Below are positions 5,678-44,054 of a stretch of 64,000 nt of DNA, in pieces (position 1 is the stretch's first letter; each line of letters opens with the position of its first letter). Both the position numbers and the translations under genes were made by a program. The DNA comes from Sphingobacteriaceae bacterium (lineage in GTDB: Bacteria > Bacteroidota > Bacteroidia > B-17B0 > Aurantibacillaceae): assembly GCA_023251775.1 (NCBI GenBank), contig JAHEYC010000001.1:1-64000 (forward strand). Direction: 5' to 3'. Below the pieces are notes generated by a model. That model made no database searches. It had not been told where the DNA came from and saw nothing but the letters and a program-made list of their open reading frames with translations.

Positions 5678-7666
5678 TCAGAATTTCACGCCAATAACAC
5701 ACACATCATCTATCTGTTCAAGATCGCCTTTCCATGAATTGAATTCATTGGTTAATGAATTGCTTTGTTCGTTCAACGTTTTTGTTGAAAGCGAAACCAA
5801 TAATTCGTTGAAGCGTTTGTACATGAATTTTTTTCCTTTTGGTCCGCCAAACTGATCAGGAAATCCATCAGTATATAAATAAAAACGATCGGAGGGTTTA
5901 AAGTCGAAATCATACAACGTAAAACTTTGTTCGAGTTCGCCTTTTCCAACAGGCATACGATCGCATTCGAGTTCAATTAATTTTCCTGCCCTAATAACCA
6001 CAGGCGCATTATTAGCTGCCGCATAGGTTACTTTTTTATTTTTTTTATCTATACAAATAAGAATGCCATCAAAGCCATCTTTTTGTCCCTCTTTACTTAT
6101 GCTTTCTATTAATCGTTCGCGCACATAATTAAAGATCTTGTGTGGCTCCAAAATACTCTTTTCTTTAATGGCTTCACCCAAAAAACCAATATTGAGTAAA
6201 CTCATGAACGCGCCCGGTACGCCGTGCCCTGTACTATCGCAAGCGGCCAGATAAAAATTATCGTTCTTGCTTGCAGCCCAATAAAAATCGCCGCTTACAA
6301 TATCTTTTGGTTTGAACAATACAAAATTCTCTTTAAGGTTAGAGTCAATAAAATCTTTATGCGCCAATAAGGCCGACTGAATTCGTTTTGCATAATGAAT
6401 AGAATCGAGGATCTCTTTTTGTTTTTCTTCGATGAGTTGATTTTTATTCTCCAGTTCGGCGTTCTTCATTCCGATGATCTCGTTCTGCTTTCGGGAGACC
6501 TTGAAACGTTTGAATATTATTACCGAGAAGATCAACACTAATATCAAAAAGAACATCACCGAACCAATAATGATATTTTGTTGTTTTCTTTTTTGTTCGT
6601 TCTTTATGTTCGAGATCTCTAATTGTTTTTCCTTTTCCAATTCAAGTTTTTCTAATGCACGGTCGGTTTCCATTTCCGAGATCTTAGCTAATTTTTCGAG
6701 GTTATTGATGGAATCTTTAACTGTATAATATTTGATCTGATATATGCCCGCCTTTTCAGGTTTTCCTAATTTCATGTTAAGATCGACCAAAAGTTTTGAC
6801 GTGCTTAGCAAGAGCTCCTGATAATTTGCCTTCAACGCATAGTCATATGCGCTTAATAAATATGTTTCAGCATTCTTATAATCGCCCATTTGGAAATAGA
6901 TATTTCCCAATCTTCCTTCGTTATAATGAACTCCCATTTTTGATCCTCGTAATTCTTGAAGTTTCTTTGAAAGAGTAACATATTTAAAAGCTTTGTCAAA
7001 TTGTTTTTTCTTAATATAATGCTCTCCAATATTCCCTGTTATTTGCGCAATAGCACTTGAATCGTGAATTTCGGAACTGATCTTATACGCTTCCATTTCG
7101 GCTTTCAGCGAACGTTCATCATCATTCAAAAATAAATATACATCTGCCAAATTCGCTAAAGTACGCGCATACGCTTTTTTATTTTCGCTTTTTTTATAGA
7201 TCTCTAATGCCTTTTCAAAATATGGTTTTGATTTAGACGGATTGTTCATGATAAAACAATGGATGTATCCTATCTTGTTAGCAGCAGCGGCAATAACCTC
7301 GGTTATATTAAGTTGCTCAGCGAGCTTGAGTGTTGTTTGAAAATACTCAAAGGCTTTTACATTATTCTCTGCTTTAAAATACGCGTTACCAATTTGAAGA
7401 AGTGACTTAGCTTTACCGCGTTCAAATTTTAATTGCTCACTCAGGTTGAGGGCTTCGGTTGCATACTTTAATCCATTTTGGAAGTTGGTGCTATCTTTTT
7501 TCTTTTGAAAGTAAAATTCGGAAGAGATGTTCACCAGTAAATTCACTTTAGCGGTATCGGGTTTGGAAGAATTCAAACGACCGATCAAAGAGTCGATAGG
7601 GTTTTGCCCAATGACAAAACAAAAACTCAATAAAAATAAAAATGATAAATACTTTTTGCCGATCAT
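5678..7666 (-). CDS. TPR-repeat, single-TM, SpoIIE-family phosphatase
   Basis: Signal peptide MIGKKYLSFLFLLSFCFVIGQ, TPRs, TM IIIGSVMFFLILVLIFSVIIF, DSIHYAKRIQSALLAHKDF, DIVSGDFYWA, ACDSTGHGVPGAFMS, YTDGFPDQFGGPKGKK. Confidence 0.93.
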   Translation of the reverse strand: MIGKKYLSFLFLLSFCFVIGQNPIDSLIGRLNSSKPDTAKVNLLVNISSEFYFQKKKDSTNFQNGLKYATEALNLSEQLKFERGKAKSLLQIGNAYFKAENNVKAFEYFQTTLKLAEQLNITEVIAAAANKIGYIHCFIMNNPSKSKPYFEKALEIYKKSENKKAYARTLANLADVYLFLNDDERSLKAEMEAYKISSEIHDSSAIAQITGNIGEHYIKKKQFDKAFKYVTLSKKLQELRGSKMGVHYNEGRLGNIYFQMGDYKNAETYLLSAYDYALKANYQELLLSTSKLLVDLNMKLGKPEKAGIYQIKYYTVKDSINNLEKLAKISEMETDRALEKLELEKEKQLEISNIKNEQKRKQQNIIIGSVMFFLILVLIFSVIIFKRFKVSRKQNEIIGMKNAELENKNQLIEEKQKEILDSIHYAKRIQSALLAHKDFIDSNLKENFVLFKPKDIVSGDFYWAASKNDNFYLAACDSTGHGVPGAFMSLLNIGFLGEAIKEKSILEPHKIFNYVRERLIESISKEGQKDGFDGILICIDKKNKKVTYAAANNAPVVIRAGKLIELECDRMPVGKGELEQSFTLYDFDFKPSDRFYLYTDGFPDQFGGPKGKKFMYKRFNELLVSLSTKTLNEQSNSLTNEFNSWKGDLEQIDDVCVIGVKF

Positions 7667-7669: not shown

Positions 7670-9691
7670 TTAAGCAACTCTTAAACCAATTACACACACG
7701 TCGTCAACCTGTTCGAGGTTACCCTTCCATGATTCAAAATTAGTGCCGAGTGCTGCAGTTTGAGATTCAAACGATTCGTTAGAGATATTCACAAGGAATT
7801 CGTGAAGTTTTTTATACATCAATTTTTTTCCTTTTGGTCCGCCAAACTGATCGGCATAACCATCGGTGAATAAATAAAGTGTATCATTCTTTTGTAATTT
7901 GATACTATGTAATTTAAATTCCTCTTTCTTCTCACCATAACCAACAGGCATACGATCAGATTCCAATTCTTTTAAAACATTATCGGTAACAACAACTGGA
8001 CGGTTATTAGCGGCAGAGTAAGTGATCTCGTGCGTATCCTTGTTCACACAAAGTAATACTCCATCAAAACCATCTTTTTGTCCTTCTCTGCTAATAGCAT
8101 CAATTAATTTCTGACGAACATAATTGAACACTTCATTTGGCTTTAAGATATTCTTCTCACCAATAGCTTCATTAAGGAATGATATGCTCAATAAACTCAT
8201 GAAGGCTCCCGGAACACCATGCCCTGTACTATCACATACGGCTAAGTAAAATAAATTATTCTTTTTATACGCCCAATAAAAATCTCCGCTCACAATATCT
8301 TTCGGTTTAAAGTATACAAAATTATGAGAGAGATGATCGTTTATAAAATCGCGATGTGCCAAAATGGTTGTTTGAATTCGTTTGGCATACATGATACTAT
8401 CGAGGATCTCTTTTCGACTTTGCTCCACCAACTCTTTTTGTTGTTGAAGGACAACGTTCATGTGTTTTTGTTTCTTGAGATTTTTGAAAGAAACATAGGT
8501 GAAAACTGCAACCAGTATCAAGATCCCTGCAATGAAATAGGAAAGGATGCGTGAATTTTGTAATGATTTTTTAGCGATCATTTTATCTTGTTGCAATAAT
8601 TTATTCTCTTTTTCCTTAGCATCCGAATCGTATTTAGTTTGCAATTCGTATAATTTATTACGACTCTCGCCATTGTAGATAGAATCCTTTAGCGAATTAT
8701 ACTTTTTGAAATAAGCTAAAGCTTGTTCGGCATTTCCCTTTTTTTCGAAAAGCTTGAAGATCTGTAAACACACATCCTTTTGATTATCGATGGCTTTATC
8801 CTCTTCGGATATTTGTAATGTTTTGAAATAATAATTAAGGGCAGAGTTCAATTTATTTTTATTGAAATCAATATTTCCCAAAGTAAGATACGTTAATGCC
8901 TGACCGTAACGCGATTCATGTTTTTCCATTAAGGGCAATGCAAGTCGTGCATAATACGTGGCCGAATCGCTCTCGCCCATGCTATTATACGCTTCACCCA
9001 AAGTTGCATAAACAAATGCAGAGTAATAATCCTTATTAGCATTCTCGAAGATCATTTTAGAATACATGAGTTCATCAACTGCTTCGGAATACTTAGCTTG
9101 TTTCATGTAAATGTTAGCGATACCAACAGCCGATGTAGCTTTGGCCAATTTACTATTTGCAACTTCTCCCCATTTATAAGAAAGTTTATAGAATTCAAGG
9201 GCCTTTTCGTAATTATTCAATCCTAAATAGGTATTACCAATGGAGTTTGCTGTTGTTGCAGATTTTTTTGTGTCCTTTAATAGTTCATAGATCTTTAATG
9301 CAGGAATAAATGATTCTAATGCAAAACCGTAAGTTCCTTTTGCGTTATTATATTCTCCCAGATCGCATAAGGCCATTGCCTCTCCTCGCTTGAATCCGAT
9401 CTTACGCGAGAGTTCAAGATTTTTTTTACCGTACTCTTCTGCTTCGTTAGGGTAAGCAGACTGAAGATAGTTAACGAATTCGGCGTAGAGATAAACTTTT
9501 TGGGTATCGATCTTACACTTGTCAATAAGTGCGAGCATAGAGTCTTTGGTCCTGTCGTTTTGTGAGAACAGAAACAAACTAACGAAAAGAGAGGCAATTA
9601 TAAGTTTGTACCTTGACAATTTGCAAAACAAATTTAGAACTTTAATCCGATAATACAAACATCGTCGATTTGCTCTAAATTCCCCTTCCAA
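7670..9691 (-). CDS. TPR-repeat, single-TM, SpoIIE-family phosphatase; true start likely TTG at 9631 or 9619
   Basis: Same architecture as neighbours. The track's start overlaps the giant gene by 58 nt. In-frame TTG codons at 9631 and 9619 lie just downstream of the neighbour's stop and immediately before signal peptide LSRYKLIIASLFVSLFLFSQ. Confidence 0.9.
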   Translation of the reverse strand: MEGEFRANRRCLYYRIKVLNLFCKLSRYKLIIASLFVSLFLFSQNDRTKDSMLALIDKCKIDTQKVYLYAEFVNYLQSAYPNEAEEYGKKNLELSRKIGFKRGEAMALCDLGEYNNAKGTYGFALESFIPALKIYELLKDTKKSATTANSIGNTYLGLNNYEKALEFYKLSYKWGEVANSKLAKATSAVGIANIYMKQAKYSEAVDELMYSKMIFENANKDYYSAFVYATLGEAYNSMGESDSATYYARLALPLMEKHESRYGQALTYLTLGNIDFNKNKLNSALNYYFKTLQISEEDKAIDNQKDVCLQIFKLFEKKGNAEQALAYFKKYNSLKDSIYNGESRNKLYELQTKYDSDAKEKENKLLQQDKMIAKKSLQNSRILSYFIAGILILVAVFTYVSFKNLKKQKHMNVVLQQQKELVEQSRKEILDSIMYAKRIQTTILAHRDFINDHLSHNFVYFKPKDIVSGDFYWAYKKNNLFYLAVCDSTGHGVPGAFMSLLSISFLNEAIGEKNILKPNEVFNYVRQKLIDAISREGQKDGFDGVLLCVNKDTHEITYSAANNRPVVVTDNVLKELESDRMPVGYGEKKEEFKLHSIKLQKNDTLYLFTDGYADQFGGPKGKKLMYKKLHEFLVNISNESFESQTAALGTNFESWKGNLEQVDDVCVIGLRVA

Positions 9692-12600
9692 TCTTCGAAT
9701 ATCCGAACTAGTAATTCGGACTGCTTGCTTAGAGACAAGCCACTTATAGACTGAATGAACTCATTTAATTTTTTTGACATGAATTTCTTACCTCTAGGGC
9801 CTCCGAATTGATCGGCATATCCATCGGTGTAGATATAAAGCCTATCACCCTTTTTCACATTTACCGTATTTAATGAGAATTTCTCTTGTCTTTCTCCATA
9901 TCCCACCGGCATTCGATCCGATTTGAGCTCGGTCATTGTTTTATCTGAGATAAGTATTGGAGAATTGAGGGCGGCTGAGTAGGTAACCTCGCCTGTTGTT
10001 TTATTTACGCATAAAAGTGTTCCGTCGAATCCATCCTTTTGACCATCCTTACTAATATTAGTGATAAGTTTTTTTCGAACGAAATTAAATACCTCATTGG
10101 GTGCGCTTAAATTCTTTTCGTTGATAGCTTCATTTAAATAGGAGATATTCAATAAACTCATGAACGCGCCGGGCACACCATGGCCTGTGCTATCTGCAAC
10201 TGCCAGATAAACCAATTCGTGATTTTCCAATTCACCTTTTTCGTTTATTACCGGTGCAATTTTTTTGGTAGCCCAATAAAAATCTCCGCTTACGATATCT
10301 TTTGGTTTGAACAACACAAAACTTTCTTTAAATGTTTCGTTGAATAATTGTGTTTCGCTCATCAAGGCCAATTGGATCTTCTTTGCGTATTGAATACTAT
10401 CGGTGATATCTTTATTTTTTGCTTCAATAATTGCTTTCTGACTAAATACTTCCTCCGTGCGTTCTTTTACTTTACCTTCCATATTTTCATAAAGTGCGGC
10501 GTTATCCACAGCAATTGCAACGGAATTAGCAATATTCCTTAACACATTCATTTGATACTCAGAATATGCATTTTTTGAAAAACTCTGAACAGTGATAACT
10601 CCGATCTTCTTTTCTTTAGAGAACAAAGGCATGTAGATAAGCGATTGCGGTGCATCACCAACAAGTGGTTTTCCAAGATCCTTAATATATTTATTGTAAT
10701 CGTTCTGTACATCATTCATGAACATCTCTTGTTCCCTTTCAAAACACCATACCGCAAACCTACCTTTATCTTTTAAGAAAAATTCGAAGAATGGTATTTT
10801 CTCATTTCGTTCAATGAATCCATTAAATTGAATGCTCTTTGTTTTATCGTTATACAATCCAATACCAAATGATTCGGCGCTCATTAAATTATTAATGTTC
10901 TCGTATGCCATCGATACGATGGTCTCCACTGAAAGAGAAGCGGTGATCACTTTAGAGATCTGTGCGATGAGTTTTGTATCGTTAAAATTCTTCTCTAGTT
11001 TTTCTTTTTGCTGTGTTACTTCCTTTGTTCGCTCAAATACGCGTTGTTCCATATTCTCATACAGTGAAGCATTATCAATAGCAATAGCTACATACACAGC
11101 AAGATTCTTCAACATTTGAAGGTCGTTATCCTTATAAGCATTGCGTTTAAAACTCTGAACAGTGATAACTCCTAAGGCTTTATCATTTAATATCAATGGT
11201 AAATAAATAATTGATTCTAATTGCTCTCCCTTAAGAGGCGGTACCCAATTGGAAATATAATGCTTGATCTCTTTGAGGTAATTATTGATCATGATCTCGC
11301 TCCGATTTCGAAAACAAACATTTGTAAGTCGGTTCATATCCTTTGTATCATAAGCGATCGCTTCAAACTTCTCTCCTCCTTCAATGTATGTAGGAAAAAC
11401 AATTTCTTCTGTTTCCTTATTATAAACGCCAATACCAAAACCGGTAGCGTCCATAAGTTTATTCACATTACTGTAAACTTTTTCAATGATATCAGAGATA
11501 GAAAGCGTGGAGGTGATATCTTTTCCGATCTGGCTTAACAAACGGGTGTTCTCATTTGATTTTTCGATCTCCTCCTTTTGTTTTACAACTTCTTTGGTGC
11601 GCTCATTTACTTTTTCTTCAAGGTTTTGATACAGGTTTGCATTATCTAATGCTCCACCTACTGAAACCGCAATACCTTTTAAAATATTGTAGTGATATTC
11701 GGTATACACGTTCTTATCAAAACTTTGAACAGTGATAACTCCTACCGCTTTTTCTTTTGAATACAATGGTAAATAAATGATAGAACTTGAATCTTTTCCG
11801 GAAACAGGTGCTTGCATTCCTTCAAAATAATTTGAGTACTCAACCGTATAATCATTTATCAATAGATCTTTTTGATCGCTAAAACATAAGGCGGCCAATC
11901 GGTTCCGATCATCAGCAGCATAAGAAAAATCATCCATTAGTTGATCATTCTCCACAAATCCTCTAAACTCTAATTTATTATTTGTGCTATTATAAATTCC
12001 AATTCCAAAGCAATCGGCCTTCATGATCTTGTTCGCATTTTGGTAAACTTTAGAGATAATAGTTTCCACTGATAATGATGAGCTGATATCTTCTGCTATT
12101 TCTCCCAACAAACGGGTGTTTTCATAAGCAATTCGTATCTCTTCTGTACGTTTCTCAACGCGGTCTTCCATGCTTCTATAAAGATTGGCTGTTCCGATCG
12201 CACTAGCAATATAAATTGCCAAATTGCGTAATATATCCAGATGATATTCTTTGTAGGAATTAGTTTCAAAACTTTGTACCGATAGCACACCAATGACCTT
12301 ATCCTTTGATGTAAGAGGTATATAGATCACCGATTGAGGATTTCCGCCTGTAACCGGTGGATATGATGTAGTAATATATTTTTTATGTTCAGCGATCCAA
12401 TCATTAATAATAAATTCTTTTCCTTCGTTAAAACACTTTACAGCGATTCGTTCCATATCCAATGTATAGGAGAATGGTGGCAATTTTTTTCCCTTTTCAA
12501 TAATGCATGGATGATACAGATCATTTTCTGCTTCGCGGTAAATAGCAACGCCAAAGGCCGGCGCATCCATCAATTTGTTCACGTGATCATATACTTTTGT

Positions 12601-15600
12601 GATGATACCTTCAATAGAAAGCGTACTTGAGATCTCTTTACCGATCTCGCTTAATAAACGTGTGTTCTTATACGTGCGTTCAACTTCTTCTTTTTGTTTT
12701 GTTACTTCAAGCGTTCGTTCTTTTACTTTTTCTTCAAGGGTCCCGTACAATGCCGCATTATCTAAAGCAATTCCAATGGATACGGCCAAGTTCTGCAAAA
12801 TATTCACTTGATAATCTGAATAAGCATCCTTGTCCAAACTTTGAACTGTGATCACACCAATAGCATCTCCTTTAGAAATAAGTGGTAAATAGATCACCGA
12901 CATATTATCATTACCGCGAATAGGTTTACGTTCCAACTTGATGTATTTATCAAACTCAGCAACAAAATCGTTGATGATGATCTCTTTCTTTTGCTTAAAG
13001 CTAATAGCGCCTAAGCGATTTTGATCGTTCACATCAATACTAATAGGATCAAGTACGTTTTGATTCTCGCGAAACCCATTAAAATCGATGGTTTGTTTTT
13101 TGCTATTGAAAATTCCAATACCAAACGAATCGGCTTTCATTAATTGATGAATATTTTTATAAACCGATGCGATGATGGTCTCAATAGAAAGTGATGAACT
13201 TAATTCCTTAGATATCTCGCCTAACAAGCGCGTATCATTATAATTCTTCTCTATCTCCTCAGTACGTTCGCGTACACGGTCTTCGAGGTTATTATAAAGT
13301 GAAACGTTATCAATGGCAATAGCAACATAAACAGATAAACTCTTTAATATCTGCAAATGATATTCTTTGTAGGCGTGCGATTTAAAACTCTGTACGGTGA
13401 TCACACCGATCTTTTTATCGCTTTGTGTTATTGGCACATAAATAATGGATTCAGGATTATCGCCTTCCTTAGCCTCATAATCACGAACCTTATTGCTTCT
13501 TACAAATTCTTCGCTAAAATGATTGATGATATAATCGTTTTGTGTTGAATAACACCAAACTGCCGGCCTATCTGTATCCTTTAAGCTATATGTGTACGGC
13601 ATCAATTGTTTTTTGCGCTCGATAGTTGCCGGAAAAACGATCTCATTTGATCTTTCGCGATACACACCAATGCCAAAGCAGGTAGCATCCATCAAGGAAT
13701 TTAAATTTGCATACACTTTATTTATGATCTCGGCAATAGAGAAGGTGTTAGAAATATCTTTACCAATTTGGCTTAAAATGCGCGTGCTCTCATACGTTTT
13801 TTCTACTTCTTCTTTTTGGAGAACAACCTCAGCCGTGCGTTCCTTTACTTTTTCTTCCATAGTTTCGTACAATGCAGCATTGTCGAATGCAATGGCTGTA
13901 TACGTGGCAAGACTCTTAAGGATATCAATATGATAATCAGTATATGCTCCTTTTCGGAACGATTGAACTGTCATGGCTCCCAACACACGATCACTTAATA
14001 CAATTGGTACCATTACTGCAGACTGAGGTGTATCGCCACCCACAAGCGTTGCCTCTGTAAGATACTTTTTGTAATCTGCCATAAAATCATGGAGGATCAA
14101 TTCTTTTTTGTTCTTAATAACCCAGGCCGAGAAATTACGCGTAGGATCGGCCGGTAACATTTTTCCCTGATGATCACGTTTAAGTTTTTCTATTTCGTAT
14201 TTATACTCTATCTGATCGGTTGCCTCATGGTATACACGAACACCAAAGGATTCTGCATCCATTAATTCATGGATGTATTTATGCAAACGCTCAAACACAT
14301 CTTCAAAATTCAAACTCGAAACTATCTGTTGTCCGATCTCGCTTAACAAACGATTATTTTCGTAAGCCTTATTGATCTCTTCCGTACGTGTGTTCACCCG
14401 CTCTTCCAAGCCTTCATATAAATTGGCATTGTCGATAGCAATGGCCACATATACGGCCAAGTTCCTTAAGATCTCTACATGATAACTTGTGTAAGAATTC
14501 TTCACGTAACTCTGTGCTGTTATCACACCAAGCGCTTTATCCTTTAATATTAGTGGTAAAAAAATGATCGACTCTGCTTGCTTTCCTTCTGATACCGGTG
14601 GTAAATGTCCAATATAATGTACAATGTCAGTGTTGAAGTCATTGATAAGAATATCCTTTCGTTGATCAAAACAAATACAAGAAAGTCTGTCCTTTTGATT
14701 TAAATTGTATGTTACCTCATCGAAACGCTCATTATTATCAATATATAATGGGAAATGTAATTGATCGGATTCAGGCTTATAAACCCCAATACCAAAACCG
14801 GTCGCATCCATCAATGTATTTAAGTTGGCATACACTTTATCAATGATCTCATTCACCGAACGCGTAGAAGTAATGTCATTTCCAATGGTACCAAGTAATT
14901 TTGTACTGGTGAAGGTACGTTCGATCTCTTCTTTTTGTTTGGTAACTTCCAATGTTCGTTCGCGAACCTTTTCTTCCATCACTTCAAATGAATGTGCATT
15001 TTGAAGCGCAATGGCAGTGTAGGTTGCTATGGATTTTATGATGTCTAAATGATAATCTGTATAAGCGTTGCGCGCGAAACTCTGAACGGAAATGCAGCCT
15101 AACACATGCTCTCCAACTGCCACGGGAACAAAAATGAGTGAATGTGGCATTTCGCCAACCACCACACGAATTTGTTTTACATATTTAATGTATTCCTTCT
15201 CATTATCATTAATAAATATCTCTTTTCGGTTACTTACACACCATACAGAATAATTGTCAACATCATTCATGGACACTTCGAAACCTTCGAGGCGCTTACC
15301 TTTTTCGAGGGCATACTTGTATTCGATCACATTTCGAGTAGAGTTAAACAAACGCACTGCAAAAATATCGGCGTTCATCTGTCCCGTGATATACGAATTG
15401 AGTTTATCAAAGATCTCTTCCAAATTAAGTGTAGATGTGATCTGTTGTCCAAGATCGCTCAGCAATTTATTATTCTGATAAGCAGATTTGATCTCTTCGG
15501 TGCGCTCAATAACGCGTTCTTCAAGATTGGTATAAAGATTGGCGTTCTCAAGGGCAATGGCTACATATATGGCCATGTTCTTCACCAACTGCAAATGATA

Positions 15601-18258
15601 ATCATTGTAAGCATTTGCCTTAAAACTTTGAACAGTGATAACGCCCAAACGTTTATTGTTATGTGTTACAGGAACGTAAATAATAGCTTCCGGCATTTCA
15701 CCAACGAGTGGTTTGTGAGTGAGTTTACCTGATCTTACAAGAAGATCACTGTAATCGTTCACCATATAGTCTTCCTGGGAAAGATAGGTTTTAATGGCGG
15801 GACGATCCGCATTCTCTATAGAGTATGAGTGCGCAGGAAGTTTCTTTCCTTTTTCAATTGATCCGGGAAAAAACATCCCTCTTTCCGTCTCGTTATAAAT
15901 ACCAATTCCTAAAACCGAAGCATCCATTAAGGTGTTAAGGTTTGCGTATACTTTATCAATGATATCGTTTATAGATAATGTGGAAGTGATGTCATTTCCA
16001 ATGGTTGATAATAACTTAGTGCTTTTATAGGTATTCTCTATTTCTTCTTTTTGTTTAACCACTTCAAGCGTACGCTCGGCCACTTTCTCTTCCATCACCT
16101 CAAACAAGTTGGCATTCTCCATAGCAATACCGGCATAAGTTGCCAATGTTTTTAAAATATCCAAATGATAATCTGTATAAGCATTCTTCTCAAAACTTTG
16201 CACGCTTATACATCCCAAAACTTTTTCGCCAATAAGAATAGGATAAAAGATCATTGAATACGGCATTTTGCCTGCAACAACCTTTATTTGCTTAGTGTAT
16301 CTTTTATATTCAATAGAAAGATCGTTAATAAAGATCTCTTTTTTACTTGCTATACAGATCACGGAATAATTTTCAACGTCGGTCATCGGAAATTCATGGA
16401 TCTCCTTGTGCCTTATGCCATGCTCAATACCATATTTATATTCTACTGTATTCTTTTGAGGATTGAACAAGCGAACACCAAAAAATCCGGCATCCATAAG
16501 ATTTGAAACGCACTTGTAAAGTTTATTGAAGATCTCTTCAAAGTTTAGTGTAGAAGTTATCTCTTGACCTAGCTCACTTAATAATTTATTATTTTGGTAA
16601 GCTCGTTCAACTTCTTCTTTCTTTAAAATTGCTTCGGCTGTACGTTCCGCGATCTTTTTTTCCTGCTCTTCGTATAAGCTGGCATTTTCTAATGCAATGG
16701 CCGAATAAGATGCAAGGTTGCGAAGCGCATTCAAGTGATACGAACTATAAGCATTAGTGCGAAAACTTTGAACTGTGATCACACCAACGGGTTTACCTTT
16801 TAGAATTAATGGCAAATAAATAATGGAGGATGGATTCTTTCCAAAGGTTGGCGCCATCGTACTCTTAAAATAATTATCCTTCTCCACTTCAAAATCATTG
16901 ATGATGATCTCGCGGCTATTCTCATAACACACAACCGACAATCTTTCTTTATCGGCCATATCATATTTAATATCGCTGAATTTCTCTCCGCCTTCAATAA
17001 ATAATGGGAAGATGATCTGTTGTTTATCTTCTTTGAATAAGCCAATACCAAAACCAACTGCATCCATAAGACGATTTACTTGTCCATAAACAGTATCCAC
17101 AATATCCGCTACATTTAATTGCGAGATTATCTTCTGGCCGATCTCGCCCATTAACACTAAGTTATTGGAATAATTCTCCAATTCTTTCGCGCGCTCTTCC
17201 AAAATAGCTCTTTCGGTTTGCGATTGCAATACTTTATTTTGCAGCTCGAAACTTTTTGAGAGCTGTGCGCTTTTGTGATTCCGCACATCCTCTTTGGCTT
17301 GATGATATATCTTATAATACTTAAGGGATTCTGTGATCTCGCCCTCATTTTCGTAAAGTTCGGCAAGCTTTTCGCTGGATTGATAGATCCCTTCTTTTGA
17401 ACCAACTTGCGTTGACATGTCAAATGCCTGCTTGAAATAATTCAGCGCTCTATTTACATCGTTCTTCTTTAAATAGAGATTTCCAAGGTCATTATAGGTA
17501 GTAGCCTCTCCGAATTTGAATCCTGTTTCTTTTCTAATGAATAAACATTTTTCAAAATATTGTTCGGCCTTTTCATGATCTTTAAGTGCCAGGTGTGTTT
17601 TACCTAAACCGTTTAACGCATAAGCTTCGCTTTGTTTATTTTGAAGTTCGGTTGATAACACAAAACATTTTGTATAATATTCCAACGCTTTAGAATAATC
17701 TTTTAAGTTCAAATAGGTTTCGGCAATACTATCTCGAACTGAGATCAAACGTTCGCGCGCTACTGTTTCAATACTTATTTTTTCACTCTTGAGAAGCGGG
17801 TCAAGTGCTTTATCATATTGCTCAATGGCACAATACACGGCACCAATTCCATTAAGGGCACTAGCAATGCCAAGATCATTCTTTATTTCCGTAGTAAGAT
17901 CTAAACTGGTCTTGTAATATTTCATTGCCGTATCGTAATCCGACAAGAAATAAAAATTGGTTCCGAGATTTACATAAACCGTTGCTTCATTTTCTTTATC
18001 ATTTAATGCTCTGAATAATGCAATAGCTTCGAAACAATACTGAGCGCCTTTTTCATTTTCGGCCATCCAGATGTATAGCGTGCCTAAAGTTTTTTTTGCT
18101 TGAGCAATTCCAACCGAATAATTTATCTCTGTTGCTTTTTGTAAGGCAAGCGTTGCAAGTTCCATTGCTTTGTCATCATTCTTGCCTTTGATGTTCCATG
18201 CTTCTTTATTAAGGGCATCGATCTCGTGAAGCGTATTATTACCTACGGTTGTTTGCAT
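9634..18258 (-). CDS. Giant cytoplasmic TPR - 12x GAF - SpoIIE phosphatase (2874 aa)
   Basis: N-terminal TPRs; 12 copies of a GAF core ending in GVITVQSF..AYxxYHLxxLxxLAxYxAIAxDNAxLY; linkers xEExVxERTxE; C-terminal DSIQYAKKIQLALM + SpoIIE motifs. No signal peptide or TM helix visible. Confidence 0.95.
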   Translation of the reverse strand: MQTTVGNNTLHEIDALNKEAWNIKGKNDDKAMELATLALQKATEINYSVGIAQAKKTLGTLYIWMAENEKGAQYCFEAIALFRALNDKENEATVYVNLGTNFYFLSDYDTAMKYYKTSLDLTTEIKNDLGIASALNGIGAVYCAIEQYDKALDPLLKSEKISIETVARERLISVRDSIAETYLNLKDYSKALEYYTKCFVLSTELQNKQSEAYALNGLGKTHLALKDHEKAEQYFEKCLFIRKETGFKFGEATTYNDLGNLYLKKNDVNRALNYFKQAFDMSTQVGSKEGIYQSSEKLAELYENEGEITESLKYYKIYHQAKEDVRNHKSAQLSKSFELQNKVLQSQTERAILEERAKELENYSNNLVLMGEIGQKIISQLNVADIVDTVYGQVNRLMDAVGFGIGLFKEDKQQIIFPLFIEGGEKFSDIKYDMADKERLSVVCYENSREIIINDFEVEKDNYFKSTMAPTFGKNPSSIIYLPLILKGKPVGVITVQSFRTNAYSSYHLNALRNLASYSAIALENASLYEEQEKKIAERTAEAILKKEEVERAYQNNKLLSELGQEITSTLNFEEIFNKLYKCVSNLMDAGFFGVRLFNPQKNTVEYKYGIEHGIRHKEIHEFPMTDVENYSVICIASKKEIFINDLSIEYKRYTKQIKVVAGKMPYSMIFYPILIGEKVLGCISVQSFEKNAYTDYHLDILKTLATYAGIAMENANLFEVMEEKVAERTLEVVKQKEEIENTYKSTKLLSTIGNDITSTLSINDIIDKVYANLNTLMDASVLGIGIYNETERGMFFPGSIEKGKKLPAHSYSIENADRPAIKTYLSQEDYMVNDYSDLLVRSGKLTHKPLVGEMPEAIIYVPVTHNNKRLGVITVQSFKANAYNDYHLQLVKNMAIYVAIALENANLYTNLEERVIERTEEIKSAYQNNKLLSDLGQQITSTLNLEEIFDKLNSYITGQMNADIFAVRLFNSTRNVIEYKYALEKGKRLEGFEVSMNDVDNYSVWCVSNRKEIFINDNEKEYIKYVKQIRVVVGEMPHSLIFVPVAVGEHVLGCISVQSFARNAYTDYHLDIIKSIATYTAIALQNAHSFEVMEEKVRERTLEVTKQKEEIERTFTSTKLLGTIGNDITSTRSVNEIIDKVYANLNTLMDATGFGIGVYKPESDQLHFPLYIDNNERFDEVTYNLNQKDRLSCICFDQRKDILINDFNTDIVHYIGHLPPVSEGKQAESIIFLPLILKDKALGVITAQSYVKNSYTSYHVEILRNLAVYVAIAIDNANLYEGLEERVNTRTEEINKAYENNRLLSEIGQQIVSSLNFEDVFERLHKYIHELMDAESFGVRVYHEATDQIEYKYEIEKLKRDHQGKMLPADPTRNFSAWVIKNKKELILHDFMADYKKYLTEATLVGGDTPQSAVMVPIVLSDRVLGAMTVQSFRKGAYTDYHIDILKSLATYTAIAFDNAALYETMEEKVKERTAEVVLQKEEVEKTYESTRILSQIGKDISNTFSIAEIINKVYANLNSLMDATCFGIGVYRERSNEIVFPATIERKKQLMPYTYSLKDTDRPAVWCYSTQNDYIINHFSEEFVRSNKVRDYEAKEGDNPESIIYVPITQSDKKIGVITVQSFKSHAYKEYHLQILKSLSVYVAIAIDNVSLYNNLEDRVRERTEEIEKNYNDTRLLGEISKELSSSLSIETIIASVYKNIHQLMKADSFGIGIFNSKKQTIDFNGFRENQNVLDPISIDVNDQNRLGAISFKQKKEIIINDFVAEFDKYIKLERKPIRGNDNMSVIYLPLISKGDAIGVITVQSLDKDAYSDYQVNILQNLAVSIGIALDNAALYGTLEEKVKERTLEVTKQKEEVERTYKNTRLLSEIGKEISSTLSIEGIITKVYDHVNKLMDAPAFGVAIYREAENDLYHPCIIEKGKKLPPFSYTLDMERIAVKCFNEGKEFIINDWIAEHKKYITTSYPPVTGGNPQSVIYIPLTSKDKVIGVLSVQSFETNSYKEYHLDILRNLAIYIASAIGTANLYRSMEDRVEKRTEEIRIAYENTRLLGEIAEDISSSLSVETIISKVYQNANKIMKADCFGIGIYNSTNNKLEFRGFVENDQLMDDFSYAADDRNRLAALCFSDQKDLLINDYTVEYSNYFEGMQAPVSGKDSSSIIYLPLYSKEKAVGVITVQSFDKNVYTEYHYNILKGIAVSVGGALDNANLYQNLEEKVNERTKEVVKQKEEIEKSNENTRLLSQIGKDITSTLSISDIIEKVYSNVNKLMDATGFGIGVYNKETEEIVFPTYIEGGEKFEAIAYDTKDMNRLTNVCFRNRSEIMINNYLKEIKHYISNWVPPLKGEQLESIIYLPLILNDKALGVITVQSFKRNAYKDNDLQMLKNLAVYVAIAIDNASLYENMEQRVFERTKEVTQQKEKLEKNFNDTKLIAQISKVITASLSVETIVSMAYENINNLMSAESFGIGLYNDKTKSIQFNGFIERNEKIPFFEFFLKDKGRFAVWCFEREQEMFMNDVQNDYNKYIKDLGKPLVGDAPQSLIYMPLFSKEKKIGVITVQSFSKNAYSEYQMNVLRNIANSVAIAVDNAALYENMEGKVKERTEEVFSQKAIIEAKNKDITDSIQYAKKIQLALMSETQLFNETFKESFVLFKPKDIVSGDFYWATKKIAPVINEKGELENHELVYLAVADSTGHGVPGAFMSLLNISYLNEAINEKNLSAPNEVFNFVRKKLITNISKDGQKDGFDGTLLCVNKTTGEVTYSAALNSPILISDKTMTELKSDRMPVGYGERQEKFSLNTVNVKKGDRLYIYTDGYADQFGGPRGKKFMSKKLNEFIQSISGLSLSKQSELLVRIFEDWKGNLEQIDDVCIIGLKF
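10450..17150 (-). repeat. Intragenic tandem repeat: 12 GAF modules = six ~1.12-kb two-GAF units
   Basis: The VQSF-coding landmark (aactytgaac) starts near 10581, 11151, 11721, 12270, 12837, 13386, 13959, 14508, 15078, 15624, 16194, 16764. Spacings mostly 570/549 nt. Confidence 0.9.
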
Positions 18259-18347: not shown

Positions 18348-20297
18348 TTAGATTTTTATTCCTATGATGAGTATATCATCTACTTGTTCTAAAGAGCCTC
18401 TCCATGATTCGATGGTTTGTTCAAGGACCTTGTTTTGCTGACTCATTGGTAAATGATGGTTTGCAAGTAATAATTCTTCGAGTGCTTTGTACTTGAATTT
18501 TTTTCCTTTTGGTCCGCCAAACTGATCGGCATATCCATCGGTGAATGTATATATCAGATCGCCGCTTTTCAGATCAACACTTTGTTTAGTGAATGGTGTG
18601 TTATCGTTCGGTGATTTTCCAACGGGCATTTTATCGGCGGTATTGATCATTAGTTTTCCATCTCTAATAATATAAAATGAATTATTGGCCGCGGCGTACT
18701 CCAGTTTTTTATTTTTAAGATCAAAGCAACACAAGGTGCAATCCATTCCGTCTTGTGACTCTTCATTCCCTTCGGAATTCAAGGTTAAAATAATAGATTC
18801 ACGAACATAGTTTAATATCTTATCGGGATGAATTATTTTTTTCTCAGTAGTTACTTCATTTAAAAAAGAGATATTAAGTAAACTCATAAATGCTCCGGGA
18901 ACACCGTGTCCTGTGCAATCGGCGGTACATACTAGAAATTTATTTTCAATTTTATGTGCCCAATAAAAATCGCCGCTTACAATATCCTTAGGTTTATAAA
19001 GAACAAAATGTTCGTTAAGATTATTCTTTAGTAATTGATCTCCGGCCAAAAGTGCTTTTTGTATACGTTTAGCGTAATGAATGGAGTCAACGATCTCTTT
19101 ATTCTTTAGTTCAATGATGTTCTTTTGTTCGGATATCGCAATATTAGTTCGTTGCTTTTCGCGATAGCCTTTAAGGATGAAAAGTGCCAAGAAGAGAACA
19201 AAAACAAATCCTGCTATAGAGGAAATGATATAAATGGTTTGTTGTTTAGCTTCATAATTTTGTGTTACTATTTCAGCATCCTTCTTTAAAAGTTCTTTAT
19301 CTTTTTTCTCGCTTTCATATTTGGTATTCATCTCCACGATCAATTTATTGCTCTCTTCATTGAACAATGTGTCTGTGATCTCAGAAAATAACAGATGATA
19401 TTGGTACGCTTTTTTGTATTCGCCTTTTTCACGATAAATAGCGTACAAGCCTTCATACGCTATCCGAAGTCCCTCCTTATCTCCTGTTTCATTTGATAAT
19501 TGTAAACTTTTCTCCATGTACTCAATTGCTTTTTCCAGCTCCCCTAATTTGGTATATGTTTCTCCAATATTACCGTATGAGATATTCATTCTTCGCTTAT
19601 CTTTATACCGAACAAATACCTCAAGCGCCTTAAGGTGTAGGGCTAATGCATTCTTAAAGTCTCTCATGTCGTAATATACCAAACCCATATTGGTATGAAT
19701 ATCTGCTACGCCAACTTGATCGCCATGTTCTTCATTGATCTTTAAAGCCATGGCATAATATTTCACTGCCTTTTTGTAGTCACCTGTAAATGTGTAAAGA
19801 AGTGCGAGATTTCCCAATGTGGATTCAGATGGCTTTTTCTCTTTCAGAGATAATGCCTTAAGCCAATATTCTTCAGCTTTGACATAATTTTTTTGATGGA
19901 AGTACACATTACCAATATTATTGGTCATGGATGCCATGTGCTCTACATTATTTATTTCTTCATCAATCTTAAGTCCTTTTAGATCATAACCGATCGCTTC
20001 CTCATAATCTCCTTTGTATTCGTATGCTAATCCAAGGTATTGATAAGCCATGGCTAAACCCCGTTTGTATTTTAATTTTTCGGCCAATTTTAAACATCCG
20101 TTGGAGTATTCTATACTTTTAGAAAAATCGTTCTTACCAAGATAGAGGTAGGATATCTTTCCATATGTTCTCACTTTAATGGTATCATCGTTGCTCGTAT
20201 TCAAAACATTCAGCGCAGAATCTAATCCTGTAGTCTGAGATGATCCCAAAAAGGTCATTAAAAATAAACTAATTACTATATGCTTAATTCGCTTCAA
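18348..20297 (-). CDS. TPR-repeat, single-TM, SpoIIE-family phosphatase (subgroup B)
   Basis: TPRs, TM IYIISSIAGFVFVLFLALFIL, DSIHYAKRIQKALLAGDQLL, TADCTGHGVPGAFMS, FTDGYADQFGGPKGKKF. TTG start directly abuts the upstream gene's TAA. Confidence 0.93.
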   Translation of the reverse strand: MKRIKHIVISLFLMTFLGSSQTTGLDSALNVLNTSNDDTIKVRTYGKISYLYLGKNDFSKSIEYSNGCLKLAEKLKYKRGLAMAYQYLGLAYEYKGDYEEAIGYDLKGLKIDEEINNVEHMASMTNNIGNVYFHQKNYVKAEEYWLKALSLKEKKPSESTLGNLALLYTFTGDYKKAVKYYAMALKINEEHGDQVGVADIHTNMGLVYYDMRDFKNALALHLKALEVFVRYKDKRRMNISYGNIGETYTKLGELEKAIEYMEKSLQLSNETGDKEGLRIAYEGLYAIYREKGEYKKAYQYHLLFSEITDTLFNEESNKLIVEMNTKYESEKKDKELLKKDAEIVTQNYEAKQQTIYIISSIAGFVFVLFLALFILKGYREKQRTNIAISEQKNIIELKNKEIVDSIHYAKRIQKALLAGDQLLKNNLNEHFVLYKPKDIVSGDFYWAHKIENKFLVCTADCTGHGVPGAFMSLLNISFLNEVTTEKKIIHPDKILNYVRESIILTLNSEGNEESQDGMDCTLCCFDLKNKKLEYAAANNSFYIIRDGKLMINTADKMPVGKSPNDNTPFTKQSVDLKSGDLIYTFTDGYADQFGGPKGKKFKYKALEELLLANHHLPMSQQNKVLEQTIESWRGSLEQVDDILIIGIKI

Positions 20298-22493
20298 TTA
20301 AGATGTTTTAAATTTTATTCCGATCAATAATATATCGTCAACCTGTTCCAGATCGCCTTTCCATTGGTTAAGGATCCCGTTCACCAACTCCGATTGTTCC
20401 AACATGGATCTGTTATGATATTTAAGAAGCACTTCCTCCATTTGTTTTGTTCTGAACTTTTTTCCTTTTGGTCCGCCAAACTGATCCGTAAAACCATCCG
20501 TTAGAACGTAGAACATATCACCATCCTGCAGTTCGAAGGTATTTAGTGTGAATATTTTCTCTTGCAAAAGTGATCTTCCAACAGGCATCTTATCTGTTTC
20601 GGACGTCATTAACTTATTATCTCTTACAAAATAGATCTTATTATTTGCCGCCGAGTACTTCATTTTATTACTCTTCTTATCAAAAACACACAGTACACAA
20701 TCCATTCCATCCTTTGATCCTTCGTTACCATCCGAACTTAATTTAGTTATCAAAGATTGCCGCACACTATTGAGAATGACGTCAGGATCGGTTAACTTTT
20801 TTTCGATCACCGCTTCATTTAAAAACGAGATATTTAAAAGAGACATAAATGCACCCGGCACCCCATGACCGGTTGAATCGGCAATGCACAAAAAGAATTT
20901 CTGGGGAGTTTCATAAGCCCAATAAAAATCGCCGCTTACAATATCTTTAGGTTTATAAATAACAAAATGATCGTGGAGATTACGCGATAAAATGGCATTG
21001 CCGGCTAACAAAGCACGTTGTATCCTTTTTGCGTAATGGATGCTATCAGTTGTTTCTTTGGTCTTGTGCTCAATGATCACTTTTTGGGTTGAGATCAATT
21101 CGTTCGCTTTTTTCTTCCGTGTTGATTCTCTTAAAATAAAAAGGGATAAGAATGTAAGGAGGATAAATCCAGCGATGAACACATTTCTCAATATCCTTTT
21201 TTGTTTTGCTTCGGATAGTTGCGCCGAGATCTCAAGATCCTTTTGTATCAGTTCTTTGTCTTTTTTCTCGCTTTCGTACTTGGTGTTCATCTCTGTCATT
21301 TGTTTTGAGCTCCTTTCATTAAGTAGTTCATTCTTCACCATGGTATAATTCTCGTGATTGAATGCTGCTTTCTCATAGTCACCTTTAGCAGCGAACATTT
21401 GGGATAAACCCAAGAACGCTAATTTTTTATCTTCTTTATGATCGATCTCTTGTGCGATCTCTAACCCTTTTTCGAGAGAAGCCCGAGCCTTTCCATATTC
21501 GCCAATGGCAGTGCATAAATTTCCATTAGTGATATAGAAAAATGAAAGGTCATATTTATTTATGGAGACCTTTGAAGCAGCTTCCAAACATTTTAATGAA
21601 TACTTAAGGGCCGTTCTGTTATCGCCGGACGAGCTGTAAAGATTTGCAATATTATTATAAGTTAAGGCAATGTATTGTTGCATATGATTACTTGTGGGAT
21701 CCTTCTTTCGTTTTCGGTCGTTGATGGTCTCGTAAAGCTTTAAGGCCTTGAATAACTTTTCGAGCGCCGCAACGTAATCCTTCTCTTTTTCATGGATCTC
21801 GGCCATATTATTATAAGCATTTGCCTGCATACCTTCATCTCCAACTTTTTCGGCCAATTCAACGTACTTCACTAAATATATTTTTGCTTTAGAATAATTA
21901 TTTTGATTGCTATATAAAAAACCAATGTTATTATATTGTGAAGCCATCATTTTTACCTTGTTGGTCTTTTCGGCCATGGCTAATTGTTTTATACTGATCT
22001 CTAACGCTTTTGGATAATCACCCAAGTAGATACACGCATTGAAGATCTGTCCGCAAACTGTATAAATGATAGAATCATTCCCAGTTCTTTCGGCAATGGG
22101 TAAAGCCCGTAAGTAATATTCTCTTGATCTGGAATAATCGGGCTTTGCTTCCGACTCAACCGCACTTCCAAAATTTGAAAGGGCTTCTACCTGCGCACCT
22201 AAGTAATTAATATTCTCCGCAATAGCTAAGGCTTCATTCAAATGTTCCGTTCTATTGTCGGCATAATATTTTCCCAAATAAATGAGCGCATCCACGCGAG
22301 CAGGATCCCTACGCGATAATGTCTTCAATAATTTCTTTACGGAATCTTGTTGCTTAGGTCCTTGACCAAAACCAATTGAGATCGTAGCTATGAAGAAAAA
22401 AATTGAAATTATGAATGCTGATCTTTGCAAAGTTTTATTTCTTCTAAATTTAGTAAAATTATTGAACTCGAAAAAAGATCTTGGTCTTCTCAA
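20298..22493 (-). CDS. TPR-repeat, single-TM, SpoIIE-family phosphatase (subgroup B)
   Basis: TPRs, TM VFIAGFILLTFLSLFIL, DSIHYAKRIQRALLAGNAIL, IADSTGHGVPGAFMS, LTDGFTDQFGGPKGKKF. Non-ATG (TTG) start. Confidence 0.92.
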   Translation of the reverse strand: MRRPRSFFEFNNFTKFRRNKTLQRSAFIISIFFFIATISIGFGQGPKQQDSVKKLLKTLSRRDPARVDALIYLGKYYADNRTEHLNEALAIAENINYLGAQVEALSNFGSAVESEAKPDYSRSREYYLRALPIAERTGNDSIIYTVCGQIFNACIYLGDYPKALEISIKQLAMAEKTNKVKMMASQYNNIGFLYSNQNNYSKAKIYLVKYVELAEKVGDEGMQANAYNNMAEIHEKEKDYVAALEKLFKALKLYETINDRKRKKDPTSNHMQQYIALTYNNIANLYSSSGDNRTALKYSLKCLEAASKVSINKYDLSFFYITNGNLCTAIGEYGKARASLEKGLEIAQEIDHKEDKKLAFLGLSQMFAAKGDYEKAAFNHENYTMVKNELLNERSSKQMTEMNTKYESEKKDKELIQKDLEISAQLSEAKQKRILRNVFIAGFILLTFLSLFILRESTRKKKANELISTQKVIIEHKTKETTDSIHYAKRIQRALLAGNAILSRNLHDHFVIYKPKDIVSGDFYWAYETPQKFFLCIADSTGHGVPGAFMSLLNISFLNEAVIEKKLTDPDVILNSVRQSLITKLSSDGNEGSKDGMDCVLCVFDKKSNKMKYSAANNKIYFVRDNKLMTSETDKMPVGRSLLQEKIFTLNTFELQDGDMFYVLTDGFTDQFGGPKGKKFRTKQMEEVLLKYHNRSMLEQSELVNGILNQWKGDLEQVDDILLIGIKFKTS

Positions 22494-22502
22494 AATTTAG
22501 GT

Positions 22503-24458
22503 TCATACTTTGATACCAATGATCAAAATATCATCCACCTGCTCAAGCGAACCCTGCCATGTTTCCATTGTTTGAGAAAGTAATTTCCTTTGTTCGAACA
22601 TGGGTAAGTGATGATTCGCTAATAATAACTCTTCAAGCGCTTTGTATTTGAATTTTTTTCCTTTCGGTCCGCCAAACTGATCGGCGTATCCATCGGTGAA
22701 TGTATATATTAGGTCGCCGATTTGCAGATCTACACGTTGTTTTGTGAACGGTGTAGAATCGTTCGGCGATTTTCCAACAGGCATTTTATCGGCGGTATTG
22801 ATCATTAGTTTTCCATCTCTTATAATATAGAATGAATTATTTGCAGCGGCATATTCCAATTTTTTATTTTTTAGATCAAAACAACATAAGGTGCAATCCA
22901 TTCCGTCTTGCGACTCTTCGTTACCTTCTGAATTCAAGGTTAAAATAATGGACTGCCGAACAGAATTCAATATTTCATCAGGATGCACAATTTTCTTTTC
23001 CGTTGTGATCTCATTTAAAAACGAAATGTTGAGTAAACTCATGAACGCACCGGGAACTCCGTGTCCTGTACAGTCGGCTGTACATAACAAGAATTTATCT
23101 TCGATCTTATGCGCCCAATAAAAATCGCCACTCACAATGTCCTTTGGTTTATACAATACAAAATGTTCCTTTAGATTATTCGTTAGTAATTGATCGCCGG
23201 CTAAAAGTGCGCCTTGAATTCTTTTGGCATAACGGATAGAGTCAATGATCTCTTTTTCTCTTTCTTCGACCAGTTTCTTTTGTTCCGAAATTACTTTGTT
23301 ACTTTTTTTCTTTTGATCATAGGCCCGAAACGAAATAATAAATAAAACCAATACGCCTGCAATAATAGCTAACAAATAGTTTCTCTGTTTACTTTTTGCG
23401 CTCAATTCAAGATCCTTAGCTTTTAGTTCATTTTCTTTATTCGATATATCATACTTAACTTCCATTTCCATCATTTTCCCTTCTACATTACGTTGAACAA
23501 TGGAATCATTGAGGATAGTATATGATCTTTGATCCTGATATGCTTCTTTATAGCGCCCCAATTCATTATTTATTTTCGCCATGTTAAAATAACAATCACG
23601 CTCGATCACCAATATGAGTTGCTGTTGCGCCAATTTCAACGAACCTTTTGTTGCTTCCATGGCTTTGTCGTACGCTTTTGTTTCAATATATATTTCTCCT
23701 AATACAAATAAACAATTACACATGCCATGGTACTCGTTTATACCATTATATATATCAAACGATTCTTTTGCTCTTTTTTCGGATCCCTCATAATCCTTTT
23801 GTTTTAGTAATATCTCCGCAATTCCTAAATTCGCATTCGCCATGGCAGAAACACCGTTGGTTCTTTTATACATTTCAAGTGCTACATTAGCATACACCAA
23901 AGCGCTGTCATAATTTCCACTTTCTAAATGTGAAATGGAAATATTGTTGATCACGTTGGCTAATTCTTTGAAGTTACTGTTTGCAACATGATAGGCTCTA
24001 GTTAAATGATAATACCGTTGAGCCTCTTTGAATTTTTTTTGTTTACTCAATAAATTACCATACATATTATACGACCTTAAAAGATCTTCTTTCAATCCAT
24101 GCTCGCTCAAATACTTTTCATAATCATGGTAATAAGCAATAGCAGGGTCATAAGCTCCGCGGTAAAACAATAACGTAACGATCTGTAAATACAATTTTTT
24201 AACTCCATTTACATAGTTGATCTTTTTGGCAAGATCAAGTGCTGTTAAATTATGATCAAAATTCTCTTTTTCTCTTTTATAATCATAACATCTGGCCAAC
24301 TCAAAATACAAATTCACCTTGTTGCTATCATCCGCTGCTAAATTTATAAGACGAGTTAGAGAGTCGATCTTTGAAAGATCTTTTTGAGCATGGATCTTAT
24401 TGCTCCAACTAAAAAAAAATAAACTAAAAAAAACTATATGAAATAAAATGCGATTCAC
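22503..24458 (-). CDS. TPR-repeat, single-TM, SpoIIE-family phosphatase (subgroup B)
   Basis: TPRs, TM YLLAIIAGVLVLFIISF, SpoIIE domain nearly identical to 18348..20297. GTG start. Confidence 0.93.
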   Translation of the reverse strand: MNRILFHIVFFSLFFFSWSNKIHAQKDLSKIDSLTRLINLAADDSNKVNLYFELARCYDYKREKENFDHNLTALDLAKKINYVNGVKKLYLQIVTLLFYRGAYDPAIAYYHDYEKYLSEHGLKEDLLRSYNMYGNLLSKQKKFKEAQRYYHLTRAYHVANSNFKELANVINNISISHLESGNYDSALVYANVALEMYKRTNGVSAMANANLGIAEILLKQKDYEGSEKRAKESFDIYNGINEYHGMCNCLFVLGEIYIETKAYDKAMEATKGSLKLAQQQLILVIERDCYFNMAKINNELGRYKEAYQDQRSYTILNDSIVQRNVEGKMMEMEVKYDISNKENELKAKDLELSAKSKQRNYLLAIIAGVLVLFIISFRAYDQKKKSNKVISEQKKLVEEREKEIIDSIRYAKRIQGALLAGDQLLTNNLKEHFVLYKPKDIVSGDFYWAHKIEDKFLLCTADCTGHGVPGAFMSLLNISFLNEITTEKKIVHPDEILNSVRQSIILTLNSEGNEESQDGMDCTLCCFDLKNKKLEYAAANNSFYIIRDGKLMINTADKMPVGKSPNDSTPFTKQRVDLQIGDLIYTFTDGYADQFGGPKGKKFKYKALEELLLANHHLPMFEQRKLLSQTMETWQGSLEQVDDILIIGIKV

Positions 24459-43475: not shown

Positions 43476-44054
43476 TTGAGCGCTATACTAAATAAAGAAG
43501 CTGAGTTTTTTGATGTCCATTTTACGGAATCCATCAAATCTATTACCGCTGCCAATTGCGAACTCATTATTGCATACGATGGTGTTTTAAATACCGAGAC
43601 CATTAGTAAATTGGAAACAGAGATCGAACAAAAGATCATCGACCTTGCTGTTCCAAAGGCAGCTCTTAAAAAAATATTCTTTATTTGTGTTGAGTCCTTG
43701 CAAAACATGCTTATTCACGGACATAAAGATCTGAATGGATCGCAACACAATTATTTTTTGGTTTACAAAAAGGCTCATCAAATACTAATTATGACAGCAA
43801 ACTTAATTAGCAATCCTGCAATTCCTAAAGTAGATGGCGACTTAAAGACCATTAATTCGTTTGAGGATCCTGCAGAATTAAAATCATATTATATCAATCA
43901 CCTCGAAAAAAATGAGCTGAGCGAAAAAGGCGGCGCAGGTTTAGGATTCATTACCATTGCCATGAAGAGCGGGAACAAATTAAATTTTGCGTTCGACCGC
44001 ATCAGCGAACTCCATTCGTTATTTAAATTAGAAGCTGCTGTAAATGTTGAATGA
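43476..44054 (+). CDS. SiaB-like (DUF6272) GHKL-type protein kinase
   Basis: FFICVESLQNMLIHGHKDLNGSQHNYFLV and NELSEKGGAGLGFITIAMKSGNKLNFAFDRI; TTG start. Confidence 0.78.
   Translation: MSAILNKEAEFFDVHFTESIKSITAANCELIIAYDGVLNTETISKLETEIEQKIIDLAVPKAALKKIFFICVESLQNMLIHGHKDLNGSQHNYFLVYKKAHQILIMTANLISNPAIPKVDGDLKTINSFEDPAELKSYYINHLEKNELSEKGGAGLGFITIAMKSGNKLNFAFDRISELHSLFKLEAAVNVE

Follow-up and report, generated by a model that had tools for sequence, protein, structure and literature searches.

How a signal travels through many sensors placed in series remains an open question; most work has dealt with one or two domains. The question is raised here by a gene in a stretch of 64,000 nucleotides, called the window below, which encodes twelve consecutive GAF modules on one SpoIIE-type phosphatase. 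We analyze this gene by means of domain profiles, trees and structure models, and compare it with related arrays and with described systems. We will argue that the product is best explained as a multi-input sensor phosphatase of the cytoplasm, probably a homodimer, a reading of the whole that we regard as rather probable.

Reading frame and domain architecture

The earlier note had described a single unbroken open reading frame of 2874 amino acids. This stands, and the frame begins with an ATG, but the strand has to be corrected: the gene lies on the minus strand, and the plus strand of the same interval contains stops throughout (Table 1). The start codon is backed by the N-terminus of the orthologue in genome G042 (MQSTVTNNSLSEIDELNKEAW vs MQTTVGNNTLHEIDALNKEAW).

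A Pfam scan confirms the proposed order of TPRs, twelve GAFs and a C-terminal SpoIIE domain, and an independent module profile gives the same number of GAFs. GAF_2 matches 12 separate stretches (E 2e-155), TPR_12 matches five stretches in the N-terminal region, and SpoIIE (PF07228) covers residues 2683-2873 (E 5e-20; 72.8 bits against a gathering score of 25). The module profile, made from the protein itself, finds exactly 12 GAFs of 162-166 amino acids each. The metal-binding motifs had been said to look intact, and SGDFYW, D-TGHGVPGA, TDG--DQFGG and the final DD are indeed invariant across 29 aligned SpoIIE domains.

By hydropathy, the 12-GAF protein has no transmembrane (TM) segment, its one weak peak (1.79) lying within a GAF, and no signal peptide was found in it. 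The six SpoIIE neighbours, on the other hand, each have one strong TM segment between the TPR part and the phosphatase, so the missing membrane anchor that had been suggested to set this protein apart is borne out.

A cysteine is found some 8-10 residues ahead of the IND motif in nine of the twelve GAFs and is conserved in several classes; it is possibly a ligand, metal or redox site. Assignment of a cyclic-nucleotide ligand by the NKFDE motif was rejected, as NK-F-DE has no match in the array GAFs.

Table 1. Features of the array gene and of related genes in the window (positions are those of the window; residues are those of the 2874-residue protein).
Feature	Residues	Positions	Strand	Basis
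Whole gene, TPR - 12 GAF - SiaA-type SpoIIE/PP2C, 2874 aa		9634..18258	-	ORF, Pfam, module profile
Cytoplasmic TPR domain	~28-321	17296..18177	-	TPR_12 etc.; no signal peptide/TM
GAF 1, class A	369-530	16669..17154	-	module profile, tree
GAF 2, class B	557-720	16099..16590	-	module profile, tree
GAF 3, class C	747-911	15526..16020	-	module profile, tree
GAF 4, class B, after 18-residue linker	930-1092	14983..15471	-	module profile, classes, linker measurement
GAF 5, class E	1119-1282	14413..14904	-	module profile, classes
GAF 6, class B, after 18-residue linker	1302-1466	13861..14355	-	module profile, classes, linker measurement
GAF 7, class C	1492-1657	13288..13785	-	module profile, classes; modelled
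GAF 8, class D, after 18-residue linker	1676-1839	12742..13233	-	module profile, classes; modelled
GAF 9, class C	1866-2028	12175..12663	-	module profile, classes
GAF 10, class D, after 18-residue linker	2048-2212	11623..12117	-	module profile, classes, linker measurement
GAF 11, class E	2238-2402	11053..11547	-	module profile, classes
GAF 12, class F	2428-2592	10483..10977	-	module profile, classes; modelled
Continuous 66-residue helix, GAF 12 to coiled-coil linker to DSIQYAKKIQ helix	~2567-2632	10363..10560	-	AF2 model, H175-240
SiaA-type PP2C catalytic domain	~2633-2874	9637..10362	-	Pfam, PDB match, fold, tree
Adjacent TPR-TM-SpoIIE paralogue, PP2C core sister to the array's		7670..9691	-	Pfam, hydropathy, tree
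SpoIIE neighbours, one TM segment each		132-2267, 5678-7666, 7670-9691, 18348-20297, 20298-22493, 22503-24458		Pfam, hydropathy
Orphan SiaB-like (DUF6272) gene, deoxynucleoside kinase and glycosyltransferase flanks		43476..44054	+	PF19788, 92 bits

Array length and module order in the genus

Beside the window's array, 20 more were found in the genus, with 4-10 GAFs each. The counts per genome are 4 (one genome), 6 (14), 7 (one), 8 (two) and 10 (two), one of the 6-GAF genes, in G051, being truncated by the contig end. Within the genus, arrays of at least eight GAFs with a SpoIIE domain, which the earlier note had suggested looking for, are those of the two genomes with 8 GAFs and the two with 10, besides that of the window. 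A 2833-residue open frame in G021, considered as a single protein, is actually a 2129-residue array and an adjoining gene of 703 residues.

The tree of all 143 modules resolves six GAF classes, A-F, each with strongly conserved class-specific residues. Six-GAF arrays are ordered ABCDCD (ten genomes), ABCDEF (two) or ABCDED (two), while ABCF, ACDCDEF, ABCDCDED and ABCDCDEF occur in one genome each. The long arrays read ABCBEBCDEF in G042, ABEBCDCDEF in G049 and ABCBEBCDCDEF in the window, the two 10-GAF orthologues keeping the same order save for one two-module difference each. The classes obey a parity: A, C and E stand only at odd slots and B, D and F only at even ones in 137 of the 143 modules, and all six exceptions come from G050, whose seven-module array ACDCDEF has no B.

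On the module sequences, the simplest reading, which has moderate support, is that the three long arrays would descend from a 12-module ancestor, G049 having lost modules 2-3 and G042 modules 8-9. These modules are absent from the respective arrays, and the second module of G049 groups with fourth modules and the eighth of G042 with GAF 10 of G000, the genome of the window, which points to losses by recombination between like modules two places apart.

Linkers and helices

The linkers between the GAFs, measured throughout the genus between the same two profile positions, are 25 residues (77), 18 residues (44) or 14 residues (1) long (n=122, 21 arrays). From GAF 1 to GAF 12 the window's array has the series 25,25,18,25,18,25,18,25,18,25,25. 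A further 79 linkers, taken from histidine-kinase GAF arrays as well as from other genera and families, with several odd ones read by eye, measure 0, 7, 14, 18, 21, 25, 28, 32, 39 or 46 residues. All 201 are 0 or 4 modulo 7, which is the a/d spacing of a heptad coiled coil and indicates that the linkers keep a heptad register. They are related by descent and represent fewer than 201 independent events; if the ten distinct lengths are taken as fair draws, the probability that all fall into two of the seven classes is (2/7)^10, ca 4e-6, which for the same reason serves as a guide only. The hydrophobic residues of the linkers recur with a period of 3.4-3.5.

The AlphaFold model of GAF7-GAF8 (pLDDT 84) has an unbroken helix of 57 residues between the two modules, and in that of GAF12-PP2C the long helix listed in Table 1 runs into the phosphatase at its DSIQYAKKIQ helix. 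Both models are of monomers, with pTM values of 0.49 and 0.56, respectively, and the relative placement of their domains is uncertain. The nearest folds to the GAF pair are the tandem GAFs of PDE5, PDE2, PDE6 and the cyanobacterial CyaB2 (1ykd), in which a long helix likewise joins the pair; these proteins differ from the array in having two GAFs, another output enzyme (PDE2A/PDE5/PDE6 and CyaB2 alike) and the NKFDE motif. The idea of a long ligand-integrating rod, put forward earlier together with the modelling of two-GAF segments, is made plausible by the continuous helix in the model and by the heptad-quantized linkers. If extended, the twelve modules with their helical connectors would span, by a rough order-of-magnitude estimate, several tens of nanometres.

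These properties have precedents. In the engineered LOV histidine kinase YF1, the length of the linker affects activity with a seven-residue periodicity, and similar heptad signatures recur between successive sensor modules (PMC6798134). The array shares this periodicity but has eleven successive natural linkers, and its relatives, set against YF1, show two length series, 7n and 7n+4. Dimers of PPM phosphatases are governed by coiled-coil linkers from varied sensors, tandem GAFs among them (PMC12143880).

It should be pointed out that the parity of the classes and the alternation of the linkers might be a mere by-product of recombination between homologous modules, with no functional GAF pair behind them. 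This explanation is compatible with a multi-input sensor phosphatase, and we give it an even chance. Two-module losses at same-class junctions, as in G049 and G042, account for the parity, and the seven modules of G050 show a broken parity together with a 14-residue linker at the junction. What recombination leaves unexplained is that in unrelated arrays the changes of linker length (0, 7, 14, 21, 28, 32, 39, 46) all stay at 0 or 4 modulo 7.

A different proposal is that most of the GAFs are spacers, the array forming a rod or scaffold that spaces the phosphatase and a TPR-bound partner, with one or two GAFs sensing. A change of length is evidently tolerated, as the gene persists within a single genus in versions of 4 to 12 GAFs, and the linker register is conserved as a rod would require. 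However, a mere spacer would have no need of six conserved types, yet each of the six classes strongly conserves residues of its own, and all arrays but one retain modules A and B. In addition, the whole-protein dN/dS is ca 0.04 with full-length orthologues in four close genomes, and the close orthologues are under purifying selection. We consider the spacer proposal unlikely, and prefer to regard the array as a sensor with many inputs.

Phosphatase type and candidate partners

The earlier note had likened the enzyme to RsbU/RsbP-type regulators, and this likeness is not borne out. The only PDB sequence match of the catalytic domain is SiaA of Pseudomonas aeruginosa (6k4e, E 1e-26), which also comes first in the fold ranking (E 1.5e-15, TM 0.86 by target length), ahead of RssB (1.7e-9). 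The array's TDGYADQFGG aligns with TDGFLDQAGG of SiaA, and the active site D600/G601/D604 with DQxGG is present. The signature TDG--DQFGG plus TGHG is found in nearly all of the 38 PP2C domains examined in the genome and is absent from one RsbU-like enzyme. Judged by sequence match, fold and signature, the catalytic domain is SiaA-type and not RsbU/RsbP-type.

The resemblance to SiaA extends to the helical linker and the DS-xYA-xIQ helix ahead of the core. The array differs in carrying TPRs and 12 GAFs where SiaA has its sensor part, in lacking a membrane anchor and an adjacent siaBCD, and in its score with the NCBIfam SiaA equivalog NF038263, where the match is confined to the linker and the catalytic part, at 150.8 bits against a cut-off of 700. 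Residue F612 of SiaA contacts SiaC (PMC7647112); it is not conserved in the array protein and nearly all paralogues, which have K in the aligned loop (G-KK-F vs G-FG-F).

The 3.6 Mb genome G000 has 77 SpoIIE matches, 11 SiaC and six SiaB-like DUF6272 domains, one strong RsbW-like HATPase (101 bits) and two STAS matches over the cut-off. No GGDEF match was found in it, so the SiaD-type output is missing. Its SiaC homologues carry a Y-NTSS motif, and in three clusters of the genome SpoIIE paralogues adjoin SiaB-like and SiaC genes. Given the SiaA-type domain, these SiaB and SiaC homologues and the three clusters, our best guess is that the array protein would act as a SiaC phosphatase. The numbers of SpoIIE and SiaC genes in 20 genomes are moderately correlated (rho 0.51, p 0.02), a relation confounded by kinship; other genomes of the genus have from 1 to ca 95 SpoIIE matches or candidates.

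No siaB or siaC gene was recognizable beside the array gene at the array loci inspected, and the array has no constant operon partner. Its neighbours vary among genomes and comprise an S49 peptidase, a carboxyltransferase, an HPPK-dNK fusion, a TPM-domain protein and SpoIIE paralogues. No common target could be made out by eye among the neighbours of the SiaC genes. In the window, the orphan SiaB-like protein, which matches SiaB weakly (6kko_A, E 0.065), is a candidate kinase of the same partner-switch type by its sequence. Elsewhere, fusions of two SiaB kinase-like DUF6272 domains are encoded at L093:5347-6525 (-, 393 aa) and L095:5029-6108 (+, 360 aa), in both cases adjoining SiaC genes and a SpoIIE gene.

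We have also considered a general stress phosphatase of the RsbU/RsbP kind, whose substrate would be an RsbV-type STAS protein under an RsbW-type anti-sigma kinase. The SpoIIE superfamily is shared, the genome has the RsbW-like HATPase and one small STAS protein, and in RsbZ of Clostridioides difficile a PPM phosphatase is joined to tandem GAFs (PMC12143880). RsbZ and RsbU/RsbP indeed have the same layout of sensors, coiled-coil linker and SpoIIE-type phosphatase, but RsbZ has two GAFs and the array twelve, and the array's signature and PDB match are SiaA-type. Moreover, the genome's RsbU-like enzyme is a separate protein of 407 residues, with top matches of like size in most genomes of the genus, and 77 SpoIIE matches face a single RsbW-like protein. 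This assignment is thus quite improbable, and a SiaA-type partner switch is retained below.

Exchange of the catalytic core

The catalytic core has a history different from that of the sensor. In the tree, the PP2C domains of the three long arrays (10-12 GAFs) group with the immediately downstream gene and not with the other 17 arrays (support 100/97), and an AU test rejects a tree in which all array PP2Cs are held together (p 1.9e-10). Compared with three other arrays, the protein is 50-83% identical over GAF 12, the linker and the switch helix until about residue 2650; past about residue 2660 the figure is mostly 13-55%, with 56-63% only around the TDG motif. Identity to the neighbouring paralogue shows the reverse, 18-40% before about residue 2660 and 46-82% after it. 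The breakpoint of the catalytic switch thus lies after the switch helix, at about residue 2660.

This switch in identity and the grouping in the tree show that sensor and linker stayed in place and now carry a catalytic core that belongs to the paralogue next door, the gene at 7670..9691 being the likely donor. The array would be the recipient, since the trio is nested inside the paralogue clade.

Upstream of the window's array (18348-24458, -) stand three TPR-TM-SpoIIE genes and then a glycine dehydrogenase-like gene of 954 residues, whereas in G049 a 956-residue ORF lies directly upstream, a difference that suggests that paralogues have been gained or lost locally. The SpoIIE genes at 18348 and 22503 have nearly identical phosphatase domains.

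An assembly artefact or a decaying gene is extremely improbable, even though the assembly is a draft of 144 contigs: the modules, at 28-61% pairwise identity, are too divergent for mis-joined copies, no DNA tandem repeat was found across the gene, 10-GAF orthologues occur in two other assemblies and arrays across the genus, the frame is open from end to end with catalytic residues intact, and dN/dS is as low as given above.

Proposed mechanism

In the multi-input sensor phosphatase that we favour, two chains would run in parallel as a dimeric rod, and the coiled coil that they share would change in twist or stability when GAFs bind their ligands. The resulting overall state would set the PP2C dimer, which would remove the phosphate that a SiaB-type kinase has put on a regulator of the SiaC family (STAS-like). 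At its TPR end the rod would bind a protein partner. The array would evolve through recombination of like modules two apart, by which a GAF pair is gained or lost with the register kept, and the enzyme core would be exchangeable because the linker and the switch helix remain with the sensor.

A wider and more tentative version, possible but in our view doubtful as a whole, is that of an evolvable integrator, in which up to 12 GAFs of six ligand classes would feed one dimeric coiled coil, its register kept by heptad-quantized linkers. Inputs could then be duplicated or deleted, and a neighbour's enzyme core could take the place of the array's own, with transmission left intact. This integrator and some 76 paralogous phosphatases would converge on a set of about eleven SiaC regulators, which in this organism would not control c-di-GMP.

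Distribution and wider meaning

Close matches to the GAF pair occur in 35 of 388 genomes of the class, TPR-GAF2-6-SpoIIE proteins included, and at the level of the phylum a strict profile threshold leaves only 10 of 396 genomes, with histidine kinases of 4-7 GAFs beside such matches. Twelve is the highest number of GAFs met in the genomes searched (the genus, the 388 of the class and the 396 of the phylum). A literature search gave nothing relevant on SpoIIE proteins with GAF arrays or on an expansion of SpoIIE in Bacteroidota, and no report was found of a whole-array linker rule or of such a domain exchange. The array protein takes a known kind to an extreme; new here are the linker rule, the pairwise class shuffling and the core exchange.

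With its exact rules for the linkers and a catalytic exchange that arose in nature, the natural series of 4, 6, 7, 8, 10 and 12 GAFs on one type of phosphatase provides ready-made constructs for testing serial signalling. The arrays also show how bacteria can add, drop and swap parts of sensors and enzymes with the signal path unbroken. Finally, the 77 SpoIIE matches in 3.6 Mb point to a large phospho-switch network of the SiaA/B/C type in Bacteroidota, the output of which, as the genome has no GGDEF, would not be made by a GGDEF enzyme.

The following relatives come from the genomes of this analysis and are not described systems. The TPR-GAFn-SpoIIE proteins of other Bacteroidia (2-6 GAFs; L106, L107, L112) share the module type and the heptad linker rule and have fewer GAFs. 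The histidine kinases with 4-7 GAFs (L149, L150) also share both, with 7- or 14-residue linkers and another output. A protein of 2019 residues at L064:7529-13585 (+) combines two array-type GAFs with a SiaA-type phosphatase, with ca 1000 residues between them. In another part of the phylum, a seven-GAF histidine kinase at L149:8370-12890 (-) and a five-GAF one at L150:2194-5640 (+) have linkers of 7 or 14 residues only.
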